64,000 bases of DNA. Source: Maribacter sp. 4G9. Its GTDB lineage: Bacteria > Bacteroidota > Bacteroidia > Flavobacteriales > Flavobacteriaceae. The DNA is taken from the NCBI RefSeq assembly GCF_002742265.1, contig NZ_MDGL01000194.1, positions 1 through 64,000 on the forward strand, read 5' to 3'. Each line of letters starts with the position of its first letter. The first letter of the stretch is position 1. Positions 9,716 to 16,680 of this stretch are shown one piece after another. The position numbers and the translations under genes were made by a program. The notes under the pieces were generated by a model. The model had not been told where the DNA came from and did no database searches. It saw only the letters and a program-made list of their open reading frames with translations.

Positions 9716-10378
9716 ATGACGAAGACAGAAAAGGTATCGTTCACAATTTCCACATTACGGGAACTTTATCCCACCATCCCTATTCCCCTAGAACATAAGG
9801 ATCCGTACACCCTATTGATTGCTGTGCTGATGTCCGCCCAAAGTACGGATGTGAGGGTCAATCAAATAACCCCCCTACTCTTTGAAAAAGCTGACAATCC
9901 CTTTGACATGGTAAAAATGAGCATTGCCGAAATTAGGGAGATCATAAAGCCAGTAGGGTTATCACCCATGAAATCCAAAGGAATTCACGGACTTTCAGAA
10001 ATTTTAATCAAAAAATATAATGGTGAGGTTCCCCAGGAAATCGAGCTACTGAAAGAACTACCCGCCGTTGGCCACAAGACCGCCAGTGTGGTGGTTTCAC
10101 AGGCATTTGGGATTCCCGCATTCCCTGTGGATACGCATATCCATAGATTAATGTACCGGTGGGGGTTTTCAAACGGAAAAAACGTGGTTCAAACTGAAAA
10201 AGATGCCAAAAGACTATTTCCCAAAGAGTTATGGAACGATTTGCATCTACAGATAATATGGTATGGCAGGGATTATTCGCCTGCCAGAGGTTGGGATTTG
10301 GACAAGGACATTATCACCAGGACCATTGGAAGAAAATCGGTCATCGATGAATACCTAAGAAAAAAAAAGACCCGCTAG
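9716..10378 (+). CDS. nth: Endonuclease III-like DNA glycosylase without Fe-S cysteines
   Basis: A 220-residue bifunctional DNA glycosylase/AP lyase of base excision repair. The helix-hairpin-helix and catalytic lysine are in LPAVGHKTASVV (K121), and the catalytic aspartate is D139 in FPVDTHIHR. The C-terminal four-cysteine loop that holds the [4Fe-4S] cluster in E. coli Nth is gone: the equivalent region reads YGRDYSPARGWDLDKDIITR and contains no cysteine. The last codons (AAA-AAA-AAG-ACC-CGC-TAG) form part of a hairpin that acts as terminator for the opposite strand. Start ATG at 9716 gives a normal N-terminus. Confidence 0.92.
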   Translation: MTKTEKVSFTISTLRELYPTIPIPLEHKDPYTLLIAVLMSAQSTDVRVNQITPLLFEKADNPFDMVKMSIAEIREIIKPVGLSPMKSKGIHGLSEILIKKYNGEVPQEIELLKELPAVGHKTASVVVSQAFGIPAFPVDTHIHRLMYRWGFSNGKNVVQTEKDAKRLFPKELWNDLHLQIIWYGRDYSPARGWDLDKDIITRTIGRKSVIDEYLRKKKTR

Positions 10379-10385
10379 GCGGGTC
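10360..10385 (-). terminator. Intrinsic terminator for the sigma/small-protein unit, inside the 3' end of nth
   Basis: GACCCGC (10369-10375) and GCGGGTC (10379-10385) form a perfect 7-bp stem with TAG, the nth stop codon, as the loop. Read on the minus strand the stem is followed by nine T residues, which on the plus strand are the lysine codons of nth. It lies 7 nt beyond the stop of the small gene at 10392. Confidence 0.75.
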
Positions 10386-10391
10386 AGTATT

Positions 10392-10535
10392 TTAGTTTAA
10401 ATAGGTTTCGAACTCCATGTCCTTGTACTTTACATCGTACAGTGCCTTTGAAAAACTTAAGAGAAAGTTGATTGTTTTTGGGCAAACTTTTTTAAACTCA
10501 GTTCTTTCCTGATAATTAGAGTAAATTTTTTCCAT
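10392..10535 (-). CDS. 47-residue small protein, paralogue of the one at 11513
   Basis: The frame encodes MEKIYSNYQERTEFKKVCPK followed by a TINFLLSFSKAL stretch and ends FETYLN. It matches the 47-residue protein at 11513-11656 residue for residue without gaps: 19 of 47 identical, including MEKIY, P-x-T-I-x-F-L-L, SK and FE-xx-LN. The gene follows the sigma factor gene by 71 nt and a perfect terminator follows it, so it is probably the second gene of a two-gene transcript. Size and duplication with the sigma factor suggest a regulator or adaptor of that sigma factor, but this is inference. No known family was recognised. Confidence 0.7.
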   Translation of the reverse strand: MEKIYSNYQERTEFKKVCPKTINFLLSFSKALYDVKYKDMEFETYLN

Positions 10536-10606
10536 ATTTCCATTGTTGTTACATTAAATTAACGCAACTAAAATGGAAATATTGTTTATCTATTTATTCT
10601 GACGTA

Positions 10607-11203
10607 TCAATTCGTTAAAACGATATTGTGTTTTTCAATTATTTTTCTTAGGTTGATAAGCGCATATCGCATTCTTCCAAGGGCGGTATTGATACTTACA
10701 CCGGTATTTTCAGAAATTTCCTTGAAGCTCATATCCTTATAGATGCGCATGATCAAGACTTCCTTTTGGTCATCGGGCAATTCTTCGATCAATTCCCTTA
10801 AATCCGTATCAATCTGATCTTTGATCAATTGTTTTTCGGCATTCAATTTGTCATCACCAATTACAGAAAAAATATTAAAGTCATCGCTCCCCTCGAACAT
10901 TGGCATCCTTTTGTTCTTCCTAAAGTGGTCAATGATCAGGTTGTGCGCAATTCGCATTACCCATGGCAAAAACTTGCCTTCTTCACTATAGTTACCTTTC
11001 TTCAGGGTTTTAATAACCTTAATAAAGGTATCCTGAAAAATATCCTCGGTGACATCCCTATCCAAAACTTTGGAATAGATAAAGCTCGTAATACGTTGAT
11101 TATGTCTATGGATAAGAATCTCCAATGCTTTCTCATCTCCGCTGATGTAATCTCTTACTAGTTCTGAATCTTCAATCTGTAATTCCATATTAGTTACTTT
11201 CAT
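10607..11203 (-). CDS. Sigma-70 family RNA polymerase sigma factor (copy 1)
   Basis: A 198-residue sigma factor with only regions 2 and 4, as in extracytoplasmic-function-type sigma factors. Region 2 includes DIFQDTFIKVIKTLKKG and FLPWVMRIAHNLIIDHFRK; region 4 has the helix-turn-helix MSFKEISENTGVSINTALGR. It is about 75 percent identical by eye to the protein at 11731-12312, and both end in IVLTN, so they are tandem duplicates. No anti-sigma membrane gene lies next to it; instead a 47-residue gene follows. ATG at 11188 (MELQIEDSEL) is an alternative start that aligns better with copy 2. Confidence 0.92.
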   Translation of the reverse strand: MKVTNMELQIEDSELVRDYISGDEKALEILIHRHNQRITSFIYSKVLDRDVTEDIFQDTFIKVIKTLKKGNYSEEGKFLPWVMRIAHNLIIDHFRKNKRMPMFEGSDDFNIFSVIGDDKLNAEKQLIKDQIDTDLRELIEELPDDQKEVLIMRIYKDMSFKEISENTGVSINTALGRMRYALINLRKIIEKHNIVLTN

Positions 11204-11460
11204 TAGGTGACAGGGTGGGGATCCTGATTTTGGTTATTGATTAATTGTAATTAGTTGTTCAATTCTGATATAAAACTAGATAAATCGCACCCTGTAGGAA
11301 AAAGTATGTTGTAAAACCGCCCTTTTATGATGTGAAAGTCTAAAAACCTATTTTCTGTACAATAAATGCACATTTTTTTAGTTCGCCGGTACCTTTAAAA
11401 ACGGTCTTGAGAAAATGAAGATGGTTCGAACACCAGCGCTCTGGAAGGTTATCGATAAAA
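11204..11460. other. Leader region of sigma copy 1, no gene seen
   Basis: Together with the terminator at 11462-11488 this is a stretch of about 310 bases without a gene. An 8-bp inverted repeat, ACAGGGTG (11210-11217) and CACCCTGT (11288-11295), brackets most of the region just before the sigma gene and could fold in its mRNA leader or mark a binding site. No clear TAnnTTTG box was found for the sigma gene here. Confidence 0.4.
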
Positions 11461-11461
11461 A

Positions 11462-11488
11462 AACCCCGGAGAAAATTTCCCCGGGGTT
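11462..11488 (-). terminator. Intrinsic terminator behind second small-protein gene
   Basis: AACCCCGG (11462-11469) pairs with CCGGGGTT (11481-11488). On the minus strand the stem runs into a T-run (complement of the A-run 11457-11463). It lies 24 nt past the stop of the gene at 11513 and mirrors the terminator behind the paralogous unit. Confidence 0.75.
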
Positions 11489-11512
11489 CTTATTGTATGA
11501 TAGAAAACACGC

Positions 11513-11656
11513 TTAGTTCAAGATATTTTCAAATTTGATGCCTTTGGCTTCGGTTATATTGAGAGATTTGGAGTAATCCAATAAAAACTTGATTGTTTCT
11601 GGTTTTGCGGATACTACTTTAGAGTTGTTTACTTTAGTTTGGTAAATTTTTTCCAT
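11513..11656 (-). CDS. 47-residue small protein, paralogue of the one at 10392
   Basis: The product starts MEKIYQTKVNNSKVVSAKPE, continues TIKFLLDYSKSL and ends FENILN. The start at 11656 is chosen because it gives exactly 47 residues, aligning end to end with the paralogue at 10392-10535; a longer in-frame start at 11701 would add 15 unrelated residues. It follows sigma copy 2 by 74 nt and is closed by its own terminator, reproducing the layout of the first unit. Most likely it functions together with the sigma gene upstream; the mechanism is unknown. Confidence 0.75.
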   Translation of the reverse strand: MEKIYQTKVNNSKVVSAKPETIKFLLDYSKSLNITEAKGIKFENILN

Positions 11657-11730
11657 ATTACTTCCGTTTTGGTTTCGGTTAAAGAACGCCAACGGAACCA
11701 ATATAGTAGATCCACTCGACCTGTTACCAA

Positions 11731-12312
11731 TTAATTCGTTAAAACTATACTATTCGCCTCAACAAGCTTTCTTAGGTTTATCAAGGCGTAACGCATTCTT
11801 CCTAAAGCCGTATTGATACTTACGCCCGTGTTTTCAGAAATTTCCTTAAAGCTCATATCCTTGTAAAGGCGCATTTCCAAAACCTCTTGCTGGTCTTCTG
11901 GAAGTTCCTTTATCATCCTTGCCAAATCCGTATCAATTTGTTCCTTGATCAATTGTTTTTCCGCGTTTAGCTTTTCGTCCCCCATTAAGGAAAAAATACT
12001 GAAGGAATCCGTACCGTCGCACATGGGCATTCGATTGCTTTTTCTAAAGTGATCTATAATAAGGTTGTGTGCAATGCGCATCACCCAAGGCAAAAATTTA
12101 CCTTCTTCATTATAGGCACCTCGTTTGAGTGTACGTATAACCTTCATAAAGGTATCCTGAAAAATGTCTTCTGTCAATTCACGGTCTCCTACCTTGGAGT
12201 AGATGAAGCCCGTTAAACGTGCATTGTGACGGTTGATAAGAACCTCAATGGCCCTTTCGTTACCGTTCATGTAGTATTTTACTAGCTGGGAATCTTCAAG
12301 TTCCTGTATCAT
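11731..12312 (-). CDS. Sigma-70 family RNA polymerase sigma factor (copy 2)
   Basis: A 193-residue group 4-type sigma factor carrying regions 2 (DIFQDTFMKVIRTLKRG, FLPWVMRIAHNLIIDHFRK) and 4 (MSFKEISENTGVSINTALGR). It directs RNA polymerase to a specific promoter set. Regions 2 and 4 are nearly identical to copy 1, while the N-terminus and the linker differ more, which fits an old tandem duplication. It is transcribed away from uvrA, and its likely promoter lies at 12432-12459. The adjacent anti-sigma gene typical of ECF systems is absent. Confidence 0.92.
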   Translation of the reverse strand: MIQELEDSQLVKYYMNGNERAIEVLINRHNARLTGFIYSKVGDRELTEDIFQDTFMKVIRTLKRGAYNEEGKFLPWVMRIAHNLIIDHFRKSNRMPMCDGTDSFSIFSLMGDEKLNAEKQLIKEQIDTDLARMIKELPEDQQEVLEMRLYKDMSFKEISENTGVSINTALGRMRYALINLRKLVEANSIVLTN

Positions 12313-12554: not shown

Positions 12555-15335
12555 ATGATTACGATATCCCAAGTTGACCCCAAAAAAAACATCATTATCA
12601 AGGGCGCAAAGTTGCACAACCTAAAAAATATTGATGTTGTCATTCCTAGAAACAAGTTGGTGGTCATTACGGGACTTTCCGGATCTGGAAAGTCAAGTTT
12701 GGCTTTCGATACGCTTTTTGCCGAAGGACAAAGAAGGTATGTAGAAAGTCTTTCTTCCTATGCCAGACAATTCCTTGGAAAATTGGACAAACCAAAAGTC
12801 GATTATATAAAAGGTATTGCCCCTGCCATTGCCATTGAGCAAAAAGTAAATTCGACCAATCCAAGATCTACGGTTGGCACTACTACTGAGATCTATGATT
12901 ATATAAAGCTACTTTACGCCCGCATTGGGAGAACATTCTCTCCCATAACAGGTAATGAGGTAAAAAAAAATACCGTATCCGATGTCATTGAACACGTAAG
13001 GCAATTTGATACGGATACCAAATTATTGCTACTCGCCCCCGTTACCATTCGCGATGACCGCGATGCTTTAAAATCGCTTCAGTTATTTTCAAAACAAGGC
13101 TATGCTAGGATAAAATACCAGGGGAAAGTTATCAGAATAGACCAGGCCCCAGAAGATATAGGCAAAGAATTTGAACTTGTGGTGGATAGGATTATCACCA
13201 AGGACGATGAAGATTTTTACAATCGATTAGCGAATGCCGTGGACAATGCCTTTTTTGAAGGCAAAGGGCAATGTATCATCGAAGAGCTCCCTACATCCAA
13301 CCAACGAATTTTCAGCAACAGATTTGATTTGGACGGAATGACATTTTTAGAACCTAACGTGCATCTCTTCAGTTTTAACAATCCGTACGGGGCCTGTCCC
13401 AAATGTGAAGGATACGGGGATGTAATTGGTATCGACGAGGATCTGGTAATCCCCAACACGACACTATCCATTTTTGAAAATGCCGTTTTTCCATGGAGGG
13501 GCGAAAGTATGGGGTGTTACCGCGACCAATTGGTCAATAGTGCCTATAAATTTGATTTTCCCATTCATAAACCCTGGTTTGAACTGTCTGAAGAACAAAA
13601 AAAATTGGTCTGGGACGGAAACAAACACTTCATCGGCCTGCATAAATTTTTTGAAACGCTAGAGGAAAAAAGCTATAAAATTCAAAATAGGGTAATGCTT
13701 TCCCGTTACAGAGGAAAGACAAAATGTAACATTTGTAATGGAAAAAGACTAAGACCGGAGACGGAATATGTAAAAATTGGCGGGAAATCCATTTCTGATT
13801 TAGTGGGTATTCCCATTGAGCGCCTGATTCCTTTTTTCAACGATTTGGAACTGACCAAGCACGATGCAAAAATAGCGGACAGACTTTTAAAGGAAATCAA
13901 TTCCCGTTTGGGTTTCTTGGACAAAGTGGGGCTCAGTTACCTAACCCTGAACAGAAAGTCCAATACCTTATCCGGAGGAGAAAGCCAGCGAATTAACCTG
14001 GCCACCTCTTTGGGGAGTAGCCTGGTAGGTTCCATGTACATTCTGGATGAACCAAGTATAGGACTTCACCCAAAGGATACCGAAAACTTGATCGAAGTAT
14101 TGCTTTCCCTAAGGGATTTGGGCAATACGGTCATTGTGGTGGAACATGACGAGGATATTATGAAAGCTGCGGACGAGGTTATCGATATTGGTCCGGAAGC
14201 CGGTACCCATGGAGGAAATATTGTTGCCCAGGGTACTCTGGAGGAAATCTTGAAATCCTCTTCACTTACAGCAAGCTATCTTAACGGAACCATGAATATT
14301 GAGATTCCCAAAGAGCGGCGTACTTCAAAGAATCATATAGAAATAATAGGTTGTAGGGCAAACAACCTCAAAAATATCAATGTTACTTTTCCATTGGATA
14401 TGCTAACCGTGGTAACGGGCGTATCGGGAAGTGGTAAAAGTACCTTGGTCAAAAAATTGTTATATCCCATAATTCTTAAGGAAACCGGGGGTTATGGGGA
14501 AAAAGCAGGGCAGTTTAGTTCGGTCAACGGAAAATACAAGCATATAAAACATGTAGAATTTGTGGATCAAAATCCCATAGGTCGCTCATCCCGTTCCAAC
14601 CCCGTTACCTATATAAAGGCCTATGACGATATACGGAATCTTTTCGCAAGTCAAAAGTTGAGTAAAATAAGGAATTATCAGGCCAAACACTTTTCATTCA
14701 ATGTAGACGGAGGTAGGTGTGAGAAATGCAAGGGCGAAGGAGAAATTACGGTAGAAATGCAGTTTATGGCCGATGTGCATCTGGAATGCGATACCTGTGG
14801 TGGAAAGCGATTTAAAAAGGATGTATTGGAAGTTGCTTTCAACCATAAGAACATCGATGATATCTTGAACATGACCATTGATGATGCCATATCCTTCTTT
14901 GAATCTGGTGAGCAGCTAAAAATTGTAAGTAAATTAAAGCCCTTACAGGATGTTGGATTGGGGTACGTAACGCTAGGGCAGTCTTCCTCTACCTTATCCG
15001 GCGGCGAGGCACAGCGCATAAAACTGGCATCCTTCCTGGTAAAAGGAGCTACTAAGGACAAGGCCCTTTTTATATTTGACGAGCCCACAACTGGACTTCA
15101 TTTTCATGACATCCAAAAATTATTAAAATCCTTTAATGCCTTGATAAAAAAAGGACACTCCATAGTAGTTATTGAGCACAACATTGAGCTCATCAAGTGT
15201 GCCGATTATATCATCGATCTGGGACCGGGCGGTGGCGAAAACGGGGGACAATTATTAGCCGAGGGCACCCCTGAGGAAGTGGCAAAAAACAAAAAATCGT
15301 ACACTGCAAACTACCTAAAAGAAAAATTGGTCTAA
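12555..15335 (+). CDS. uvrA: Excinuclease ABC subunit A
   Basis: The 926-residue damage-recognition ATPase of nucleotide excision repair, acting as a dimer with UvrB on DNA. Two ABC modules are visible: Walker A GLSGSGKSS (40-48) and GVSGSGKST in the second half, with signature motifs LSGGESQRINLA and LSGGEAQRIKLA. Zinc-binding cysteine pairs are present (CPKCEGYG, CNICNGKR, CEKCKGEG with CDTCGGKRF). Length matches the family. It is divergent from the duplicated sigma genes and has a -7 promoter box right upstream. No LexA-type operator was recognised. Confidence 0.97.
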   Translation: MITISQVDPKKNIIIKGAKLHNLKNIDVVIPRNKLVVITGLSGSGKSSLAFDTLFAEGQRRYVESLSSYARQFLGKLDKPKVDYIKGIAPAIAIEQKVNSTNPRSTVGTTTEIYDYIKLLYARIGRTFSPITGNEVKKNTVSDVIEHVRQFDTDTKLLLLAPVTIRDDRDALKSLQLFSKQGYARIKYQGKVIRIDQAPEDIGKEFELVVDRIITKDDEDFYNRLANAVDNAFFEGKGQCIIEELPTSNQRIFSNRFDLDGMTFLEPNVHLFSFNNPYGACPKCEGYGDVIGIDEDLVIPNTTLSIFENAVFPWRGESMGCYRDQLVNSAYKFDFPIHKPWFELSEEQKKLVWDGNKHFIGLHKFFETLEEKSYKIQNRVMLSRYRGKTKCNICNGKRLRPETEYVKIGGKSISDLVGIPIERLIPFFNDLELTKHDAKIADRLLKEINSRLGFLDKVGLSYLTLNRKSNTLSGGESQRINLATSLGSSLVGSMYILDEPSIGLHPKDTENLIEVLLSLRDLGNTVIVVEHDEDIMKAADEVIDIGPEAGTHGGNIVAQGTLEEILKSSSLTASYLNGTMNIEIPKERRTSKNHIEIIGCRANNLKNINVTFPLDMLTVVTGVSGSGKSTLVKKLLYPIILKETGGYGEKAGQFSSVNGKYKHIKHVEFVDQNPIGRSSRSNPVTYIKAYDDIRNLFASQKLSKIRNYQAKHFSFNVDGGRCEKCKGEGEITVEMQFMADVHLECDTCGGKRFKKDVLEVAFNHKNIDDILNMTIDDAISFFESGEQLKIVSKLKPLQDVGLGYVTLGQSSSTLSGGEAQRIKLASFLVKGATKDKALFIFDEPTTGLHFHDIQKLLKSFNALIKKGHSIVVIEHNIELIKCADYIIDLGPGGGENGGQLLAEGTPEEVAKNKKSYTANYLKEKLV

Positions 15336-15480: not shown

Positions 15481-16680
15481 ATGAAAAATTTAGTACTCCT
15501 TTTTACGGCGATGATTTTAGGCACTACAGGTGTCTTGGCCAACGGTACAGTAGAAGATAAGGTTGCAACGCGCAATGCTTATAGGTACAACAACTCCTTT
15601 ATTTTTGTTGAGAATGGCATTACGTTTTCAGTATACCCAGATGGGGAGTTCGACTTTTACATTGAGGATTATGTAACTGGAAGAAGAAACGGAATTACCT
15701 TCAACTCAGGATATGACTACAGTCCATATGCACAGTATGATGATTACGGCGCGGTGATTCAAGTAGAGAACGTTCCTATTTATTACGACTTCTATGGAAG
15801 GGTTACCCAAATAGGTGATGTGGACATCAGATACAGAAACAATAGGGTTCGTAGCGTAGGTGGCATGTATGTGTTCTATAACAATAGAGGTTTCTATGAT
15901 TACCATACAGGTTTCATAAACATTTATAACAGACATTATGTATATCGCCCATTTCACGGGTTTTTCGTAAGACCCGCCATAGGATTCGCATTGGTTTTCA
16001 ATAGACCTTACAGAAGGTTTTACACGCCAATAAGGTACACCTATTACACACCTTATAGATTCAATACCCGTAGGGCGTATGTAAACATTGGAAGAGAACA
16101 TAGATACAATCAAGTGCGACGTGAAAGGGCGAGTATCTATAGAAATGATAATCGGGTAGCCGTAAGGGAGAATTCCTATAGAGGTAACAAAAGTACGGCT
16201 TACAGAAACAATGACGGTGTTCGTTCCAACAATAACACGGCGAGAAGAAGTGATGATTTTAAGTCTGGAAGAAGTGTGGCCTCAAGCAACAATGGACGAA
16301 AAACGGATAATTCCGTAAGAAGATCGTCAACTGTGAACAGAAGCAGTTCAACAACGGTAAGGCGCGGTAGTGATAATAATACAGTTAGAAGTAACGAAAA
16401 AAGAAATGTGGTATCTACAAGGGAGGTAACCAAAACTCCAAGAAGTACTACGGTAAAAAGAAGTACTACTACGTATTCATCACCTACTAACAGAAGTACG
16501 GCAAGCCGTAGTAACGATAGTAGGACCGTCACCCAAAGAAGCGTAAAAAGGACCGTTACACCTTCCAACAATAGAAGTACTACGGTCAGTAAATCGACAA
16601 GATCGGTCAGTAAAGCTCCATCTAGAGGTACTACCCGAAGCAGTAATACAAGATCCGCTTCTAGAAGGAATTATGAATAA
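15481..16680 (+). CDS. Secreted protein with Arg/Ser/Thr-rich disordered C-terminus
   Basis: A 399-residue protein with a signal peptide (MKNLVLLFTAMILGTTGVLA, 1-20). Residues 35-180 are rich in Tyr, Phe and Gly with short beta-like repeats of the YRNNRVRSVGGMYVFYNNRG kind. From about residue 200 the chain is low-complexity Arg, Ser, Thr and Asn, strongly basic, with no cysteines. It may sit at the cell surface and bind polyanions, but this is only inferred from charge. It has its own transcript, with a sigma-54-like promoter upstream and a strong terminator downstream. No characterised family was recognised. Confidence 0.8.
   Translation: MKNLVLLFTAMILGTTGVLANGTVEDKVATRNAYRYNNSFIFVENGITFSVYPDGEFDFYIEDYVTGRRNGITFNSGYDYSPYAQYDDYGAVIQVENVPIYYDFYGRVTQIGDVDIRYRNNRVRSVGGMYVFYNNRGFYDYHTGFINIYNRHYVYRPFHGFFVRPAIGFALVFNRPYRRFYTPIRYTYYTPYRFNTRRAYVNIGREHRYNQVRRERASIYRNDNRVAVRENSYRGNKSTAYRNNDGVRSNNNTARRSDDFKSGRSVASSNNGRKTDNSVRRSSTVNRSSSTTVRRGSDNNTVRSNEKRNVVSTREVTKTPRSTTVKRSTTTYSSPTNRSTASRSNDSRTVTQRSVKRTVTPSNNRSTTVSKSTRSVSKAPSRGTTRSSNTRSASRRNYE

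Follow-up and report, generated by a model that had tools for sequence, protein, structure and literature searches.

Class I anti-sigma factors, such as RseA, ChrR, RskA and RsiW, hold extracytoplasmic function (ECF) sigma factors in check. Their helices 1-3 bind sigma region 4, while helix 4 binds regions 2.1/2.2, at the site for core RNA polymerase (PMC7406223). A survey found a class I anti-sigma factor near only 6% of Bacteroidetes ECF genes, against an average of 32%; the control of the rest is left open there, and anti-sigma domains shorter than 50 residues had been removed (PMC7406223). Here we analyse the first 64,000 nucleotides (nt) of contig NZ_MDGL01000194.1 of Maribacter sp. 4G9 (assembly GCF_002742265.1), a stretch that we call the window, in which two ECF sigma genes are each followed by a gene for a protein of 47 residues. 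This small gene is conserved behind its sigma gene in other genera and carries an ECF-type promoter of its own. On balance, it probably encodes a minimal soluble anti-sigma factor of the neighbouring sigma, induced by that sigma and acting in negative feedback.

Fin and CsfB of Bacillus are soluble feedback inhibitors, made under the very sigma factor that each inhibits; the protein described here would be an induced small inhibitor of that sort, but in another phylum. Class II and III anti-sigma factors (CnrY; RsbN) are also short and bind sigma region 2 with their last helix, but have at least two helices; the small protein is set against them by description and not by sequence (PMC7406223). 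SigP of Porphyromonas gingivalis is alike, again by description, as a Bacteroidota ECF sigma factor that stands under a two-component system, and the word 'anti-sigma' is absent from the accessible text of the two papers on it (PMC4800418, PMC8265659). EcfO-Reo was set aside as a counterpart, since Reo, in the available part of its description, spans the envelope. Within the openly accessible literature, to which the search was confined, we found no description of the small protein, nor of the small RNA presented below, and comparison with Pfam, NCBIfam and Rfam gave no family for either.

Compared with class I, the small gene shares its place beside an ECF sigma gene. It differs in that its 47-residue product is predicted as one helix plus a hairpin, ends mostly in -LN and has no membrane or sensor part. 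The gene also has its own promoter, sometimes with a terminator before it, instead of belonging to an operon. In the window, two such units stand head to tail on the minus strand, between uvrA and a gene of endonuclease III type. Each runs, 5' to 3', from sigma gene to small gene to terminator:

11731..12312, minus strand: ECF sigma factor of unit 2, on the uvrA side; 193 residues (Pfam Sigma70_r2 1.1e-14, Sigma70_r4_2 3.4e-11)
11684..11708, minus strand: promoter-like element of unit 2, diverged to TACTA-N15-CGTT (it stays under 15 when the window is scored)
11513..11656, minus strand: 47-residue small protein of unit 2 (from the list of open reading frames; AlphaFold2 model described below)
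11457..11488, minus strand: intrinsic terminator of unit 2 (hairpin plus T-run in the sequence)
10607..11203, minus strand: ECF sigma factor of unit 1, on the nth side, with C-terminus IVLTN; 198 residues (Pfam Sigma70_r2 2.9e-14, Sigma70_r4_2 2.5e-11)
10560..10585, minus strand: ECF-type promoter of small gene 1, ACAATA-N15-CGTTA (top score in the 64-kb window, 21.4; the site is also in the training set)
10392..10535, minus strand: 47-residue small protein of unit 1, the proposed minimal anti-sigma factor (list of open reading frames, homologue searches, codon-position bias)
10360..10385, minus strand: intrinsic terminator of unit 1 (hairpin plus T-run in the sequence)
9716..10378, plus strand: HhH-GPD gene (endonuclease III type, nth), convergent neighbour (Pfam PF00730 3.1e-20; synteny in most named loci)
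12555..15335, plus strand: uvrA, divergent neighbour on the sigma side (Pfam UvrA domains; synteny in most named loci)

The initial annotation of this DNA had described two sigma paralogues followed at 71 and 74 nt by genes of 47 codons, each unit being closed by its own terminator, and the coordinates and the two hairpins with T-runs bear this out. Its estimate by eye of about 75% identity between the sigma proteins agrees with the 144 of 193 aligned residues that we counted. The two small proteins do align without gaps, as it had stated, with 19 of 47 residues identical (alignment score 86; 2000 shuffles reach at most 30). It had noted that neither unit has the usual membrane anti-sigma gene, and the window's list of open reading frames contains no anti-sigma gene of ordinary size in either. 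Both sigma proteins are of the ECF type, with Pfam regions 2 and 4 and the model TIGR02937 all above cutoff.

Of 149 Flavobacteriaceae genomes, 144 contain a match to the sigma factor at an expectation value (E) ≤1e-30, and 98 contain a match at E≤0.01 to the small protein used as a single query. Sigma loci were read from 130 of the 144 sigma-positive genomes (14 were left out). In all 147 units of these loci the small gene lies on the same strand behind the sigma gene. The same holds for 84 of 84 sigma units in 80 named loci, taken from genera that include Algibacter, Winogradskyella, Aquimarina, Kordia, Gramella, Salegentibacter, Polaribacter, Maribacter and Flagellimonas: 82 of these small genes are found within 260 nt, and two about 457 and 640 nt downstream. 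Both unit counts come from a profile recount within 900 nt, with four units in each first taken by eye and with a profile that itself contains many of the named sequences. The small protein measures 45-53 residues (mode 47), and the gap between the two genes has its mode at 57 nt (143 units measured). As for the protein ends in these family loci, the small protein closes with asparagine in 140 of 143 cases, mostly as -LN, and the last residue of the sigma factor is asparagine in 126 of 147 units.

Substitutions in the small gene follow the pattern of a coding sequence. Across 23 independent pairs of relatives, codon positions 1, 2 and 3 carry 95, 52 and 204 differences, and the median ratio of nonsynonymous to synonymous rates is about 0.16; by this measure the small gene is under purifying selection. 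The two window copies alone, with 21, 16 and 29 differences, are too saturated to prove coding. The initial annotation had staked the reality of the module on homologues behind the same sigma gene in other genera and on a synonymous bias, and both were found. A chance open reading frame is ruled out by the conserved position, the homologues and the codon-position bias.

The spacer between the two genes contains a second conserved element. In 187 of 212 distinct Flavobacteriaceae spacers anchored on CGTT, (A)CAATA is followed after exactly 15 nt by CGTT and then by A/T; the invariance of CGTT is a product of the anchoring, and most of the other 25 spacers were skipped since their motif begins at the sigma stop codon. 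The bipartite CAATA-N15-CGTT layout is that of an ECF promoter. With its fixed spacing, its place shortly before the start codon (mostly 27-41 nt upstream of the ATG in Flavobacteriaceae) and its conservation across genera, the element has the form of a promoter heading an ECF transcription unit. A matrix trained on Flavobacteriaceae exceeds the 99th percentile of shuffles before 31 of 39 sigma-linked small genes of other families, and before 21 of 25 small genes of these families that have no sigma gene within 900 nt upstream (repeated proteins and one copy that lacks a usable ATG were excluded; some rows are close relatives). The sigma genes themselves are not preceded by it: a site of score 13 occurs before 0 of 78, against 2 in shuffled sequence.

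Of 22 loci whose gap measures 85 nt or more, 7 have a strong terminator between the sigma gene and this promoter, against a shuffled rate of 0. A simple operon partner, devoid of its own promoter, is rejected for most loci by the conserved promoter and the intervening terminators. The module of sigma factor plus small gene, as put forward in the initial annotation, stands as a conserved co-occurrence, with the correction that the small gene can be a separate transcription unit. In four loci with long forms of the protein (L499, L500, L501 and L506), no good promoter is seen and the gap is 55-121 nt, which suggests co-transcription there. Elsewhere, locus L211 (genome G400) has a diverged sigma factor, with no match at 1e-40, and a small gene preceded by CAATA with AGTT replacing CGTT; sigma and promoter are perhaps changing together.

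We searched for the strict motif beyond the small gene. In 13 congeneric genomes, the window's own included, it has 39 matches, against 25 for the reversed pattern: 12 are counted as promoters of small genes (8 placed by their locus or coordinates and 4 recognised from the matched string only), 10 belong to a small RNA, and the remaining 17 are not above the reversed-pattern control. Across the 149 genomes there are 63 matches, 35 at the small gene by coordinates and 28 elsewhere, with 67 for the control. A large regulon of the strict motif is rejected, as the matches outside small gene and RNA do not exceed control in the 13 or in the 149 genomes. Two congeners (L374 and L377) carry the strict motif, at position 1501, 40-41 nt before the gene of a 488-residue protein (MKKV..SGVNSVISNPANIAD), a possible protein-coding target.

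In E. coli, the small RNAs MicA and RybB depend on sigmaE. A similar layout, likened to theirs by arrangement and not by sequence, occurs in the window's genus: further exact matches of the ECF-type motif precede a short RNA-like unit in which the box TTTTGAGTTAGT occurs once or twice and which mostly ends in a CCGGTG-CACCGG terminator. The copy in the window's genome lies on contig C91, at 956-1106. A covariance model built on the 3' core, promoter excluded, finds matches in 47 of 149 genomes at E≤0.01, and 21 of these at E≤3e-6 (three of the 21 strong matches helped to build it). The promoter is present 16-84 nt upstream of all 21 strong matches, with scores of 15.9-25.1 against a shuffled 99th percentile of 14.1; before nine weaker matches in other genera the score is at most 13.0. 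All 21 genomes are among the 22 whose sigma factor is at least 82% identical to that of unit 1. No Rfam family matches the RNA at the gathering score (0 matches, 11 loci). A related case is that of Flavobacterium psychrophilum, where the promoter motif SM6, of the CGT type, precedes type IX secretion genes and the RNA Rfp11; the likeness lies in the CGT-type -10 box and in the fact that one SM6 promoter drives an RNA, which is said to be conserved in other species (PMC9723704).

Further copies of the small RNA were considered and rejected: none of 20 weaker matches, 16 in the same genomes and four in other genera, is preceded by the promoter (top score 9.7), and the 16 resemble 3' ends of genes that share GAGTTAGTT plus a terminator. 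In the window's clade, GAGTTAGTT is seen directly 5' of intrinsic terminators at apparent gene 3' ends (L461-L476, around position 500). In four other Flavobacteriaceae genera (L403, L417, L418 and L423, from position 1501), the motif stands beside the 3' end of fabH and heads an RNA-like unit that contains TTAGAGTTAGTCGTCTACA and closes with a terminator. Behind it, another site, similar to CAATA-N15-CGTC, heads a second terminator-ended unit, and these are perhaps tandem small RNAs. Both the small RNA and the fabH-side units are putative transcripts.

Beyond the family, small-protein profiles at E≤0.01 match 118 genomes out of 196 in the order and 137 out of 295 in the class, which the named Flavobacteriaceae indicate to be Bacteroidia, the weakest including likely chance matches; a broader profile reaches 141 of 295 class genomes at E≤0.001. 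The sigma factor is found at E≤1e-40 in 139 of these 141 genomes, against 114 of the other 154 (Fisher p 1e-10). In 47 of 51 loci from the first two profile searches, the sigma gene is upstream of the small gene; each of the four other genomes has a sigma match elsewhere. Adjacency to an ECF sigma gene, a trait of class I anti-sigma genes, thus extends from the 147 and 84 family units to the class, where 84 of 108 genomes with a sigma place among the matches listed have the small gene no more than 1 kb behind sigma (the other 33 of the 141 have no sigma place among them and fall outside this count). A set of 38 class genomes is positive for sigma and negative for the profile (40 loci minus L519 and L520, whose genomes were already positive). 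A candidate is present downstream of sigma in 22 of them, in part weak, with L488, L490 and L516 taken by eye or by an NCBIfam match. The promoter exceeds the 99th percentile of shuffles in 13 of these 22 loci, against 0 of the 16 without a candidate.

The same data can be taken to mean that the small protein is a sigma-dependent effector, acting for instance on the envelope, the ribosome or RNA, with no contact with sigma. Its own promoter fits this, as do the terminators that precede it in some loci and its persistence away from the sigma gene. With a small RNA behind the same type of promoter, the regulon may comprise a group of small effectors, and no larger regulon of the strict motif rises above control. 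A pure effector, however, would not need lasting adjacency to the sigma gene, and some long forms of the protein, described next, resemble anti-sigma factors; we consider this explanation rather unlikely, if the most serious of the alternatives.

The AlphaFold2 model of the 47-residue protein shows a loose N-terminus, a helix at residues 19-31 and strands at 32-37 and 40-45 (mean predicted local distance difference test score, pLDDT, 79.3; predicted template modelling score, pTM, 0.44). One helix plus a beta hairpin thus takes the place of the four-helix domain of class I. With this model, Foldseek returned nothing useful (best E 3.2). The two window proteins stay below the cutoff of every Pfam and NCBIfam family, and among 34 diverse relatives no family of either library matches more than two members, all weakly.

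Outside Flavobacteriaceae, several of the candidates downstream of sigma are longer, with 64-80 residues. By eye these long forms look anti-sigma-like: they carry I-x-x-Y-x-Y-G-E-L, an acidic second helix and P-S-x-x-S-V-x-x-I-L-x-Y-S. The only model to match more than one of them is the NCBIfam entry NF052375, 'anti-sigma factor', whose N-terminal part is matched, weakly and below the cutoff, by 5 of 18 long or intermediate forms. Three of these lie downstream of sigma (L516, 7.5e-6; L493, 4.4e-4; L506, 0.011) and two away from it but behind the promoter (L384, 0.0015; L396, 0.029). Profile comparisons of long and short forms by hhalign gave E 6e-6 with probability 85 and, in a second comparison, E 4e-7 with probability 93, in each case over the last helix only, about 25 columns. 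In the 47-residue protein this helix reads P-x-x-x-T-[IV]-x-x-[IL]-L-x-Y-S-K-x-L. We take it to stand at the position of class I helix 4, which binds sigma region 2 (PMC7406223). Since helix 4 makes that contact, and since the profiles join long and short forms over their last helix, we read the 47-residue protein as an anti-sigma factor worn down to helix 4 plus the hairpin. The suggestion of the initial annotation, that the small protein may control the sigma factor, gains support at the level of sequence from the long forms, the helix profile tie and the ECF-type promoter.

The circuit that we favour would work as follows. Once switched on by a signal, the sigma factor would transcribe the small gene from CAATA-N15-CGTT, about 35 nt before its ATG. 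Through its one retained helix, read as the counterpart of class I helix 4, the small protein would then attach to sigma region 2 and keep the sigma factor off core RNA polymerase, so that the response is stopped by negative feedback. The small RNA behind the same type of promoter would be a second output in the window's clade.

Several observations weigh against this proposal. The 47-residue form is without helices 1-3, so that inhibition would need to be achieved by one helix and a hairpin, and a sigma factor without a co-transcribed inhibitor would need another switch at rest. The NF052375 matches fall far below the 100-bit cutoff of the model (best 26.1), which spans 217 positions; 13 of the 18 long or intermediate forms and all 34 diverse relatives are unmatched at the thresholds used, and the entry is named 'anti-sigma factor' with no class given, its assignment to class I being our reading. 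Pfam holds no meaningful match for relatives of the small protein, long forms included, and sequence matches in the PDB gave no useful structure and no anti-sigma factor for short or long forms. A fold of sigma and small protein fused (L297, 34 rows; pLDDT 73.6, pTM 0.56) leaves the N-terminal part of the small protein at low confidence and shows no confident interface. Of the 108 genomes with a sigma place among the matches listed, 24 lack the pair within 1 kb; in two of these, G382 and G390, the small gene follows sigma on one contig and strand at 2.7 and 1.6 kb, and in several others the two genes sit on separate contigs of a draft assembly. Downstream of sigma, 16 of the 38 sigma-positive, profile-negative genomes yielded no candidate. 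Finally, the region 4 recognition helix is identical in both window sigma factors though the -35 boxes of the two units differ.

This last point also bears on the possibility that a different ECF sigma factor reads the promoter, the neighbouring one merely sharing the locus; seven ECF sigma factors are described in F. psychrophilum (PMC9723704). Sigma and small gene nevertheless co-occur across the class, and the motif stays where the two are apart, so that we give this idea little credence. Linkage and promoter would also be accounted for by a small protein that binds sigma or the holoenzyme and helps it, as a co-activator or stabiliser in positive feedback. Such a role is quite improbable: some long forms resemble the anti-sigma model, and we take the retained helix for the one with which class I anti-sigma factors mask the face of sigma region 2 that binds core polymerase (PMC7406223).

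If the small protein is indeed a sigma-induced anti-sigma factor, the locus may belong to a new, class-wide type of ECF circuit, which we put forward tentatively. The most conserved target of the sigma factor would be its own miniature inhibitor, reduced in Flavobacteriaceae to one helix that grips sigma region 2 plus a hairpin, and produced only on demand from a promoter reserved for it; a small RNA specific to one clade would be the second output. Such a circuit would explain part of the Bacteroidota ECF sigma factors that have no recognisable anti-sigma factor. One overlooked answer to the question of Bacteroidetes ECF control may then lie in genes of about 44-80 codons that are unnamed in the family libraries searched, and could, if true, explain how sigma factors without a recognised inhibitor are held in check. 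If it does inhibit, the protein would also, at 47 residues, count as a very small anti-sigma factor that might serve as a component of synthetic circuits.

The tandem arrangement, to which the initial annotation drew attention, is real in the window but limited to one clade: two units occur in 17 of the 130 family loci read. In these 17 loci, CAATA is kept in the nth-side unit in 17 of 17 and in the uvrA-side unit in 0 of 16. In a tree, all tandem copies group in one clade of 38 leaves (support 0.87). Its nth-side copies separate only loosely, in a group of 23 leaves that also takes in two uvrA-side copies (support 0.52), so that the tree does not fix how many duplications there were or how old they are. 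As to the surroundings, uvrA, nth and a peroxiredoxin gene are retained as neighbours in most of the 80 named loci.

Two minor features of the window may be added. Before each small open reading frame (10530-10600 and 11650-11700), inverted repeats are seen by eye, ATTTCCATT/AATGGAAAT and TTCCGTT/AACGGAA, and those of the two units differ by a compensating change. As the main conserved element of the spacer they were set aside, because it is the promoter that is kept from genus to genus. Beyond uvrA, positions 15481-16680 encode a 399-residue protein with a repetitive, basic C-terminal part, for which Pfam gives no match at E≤1.

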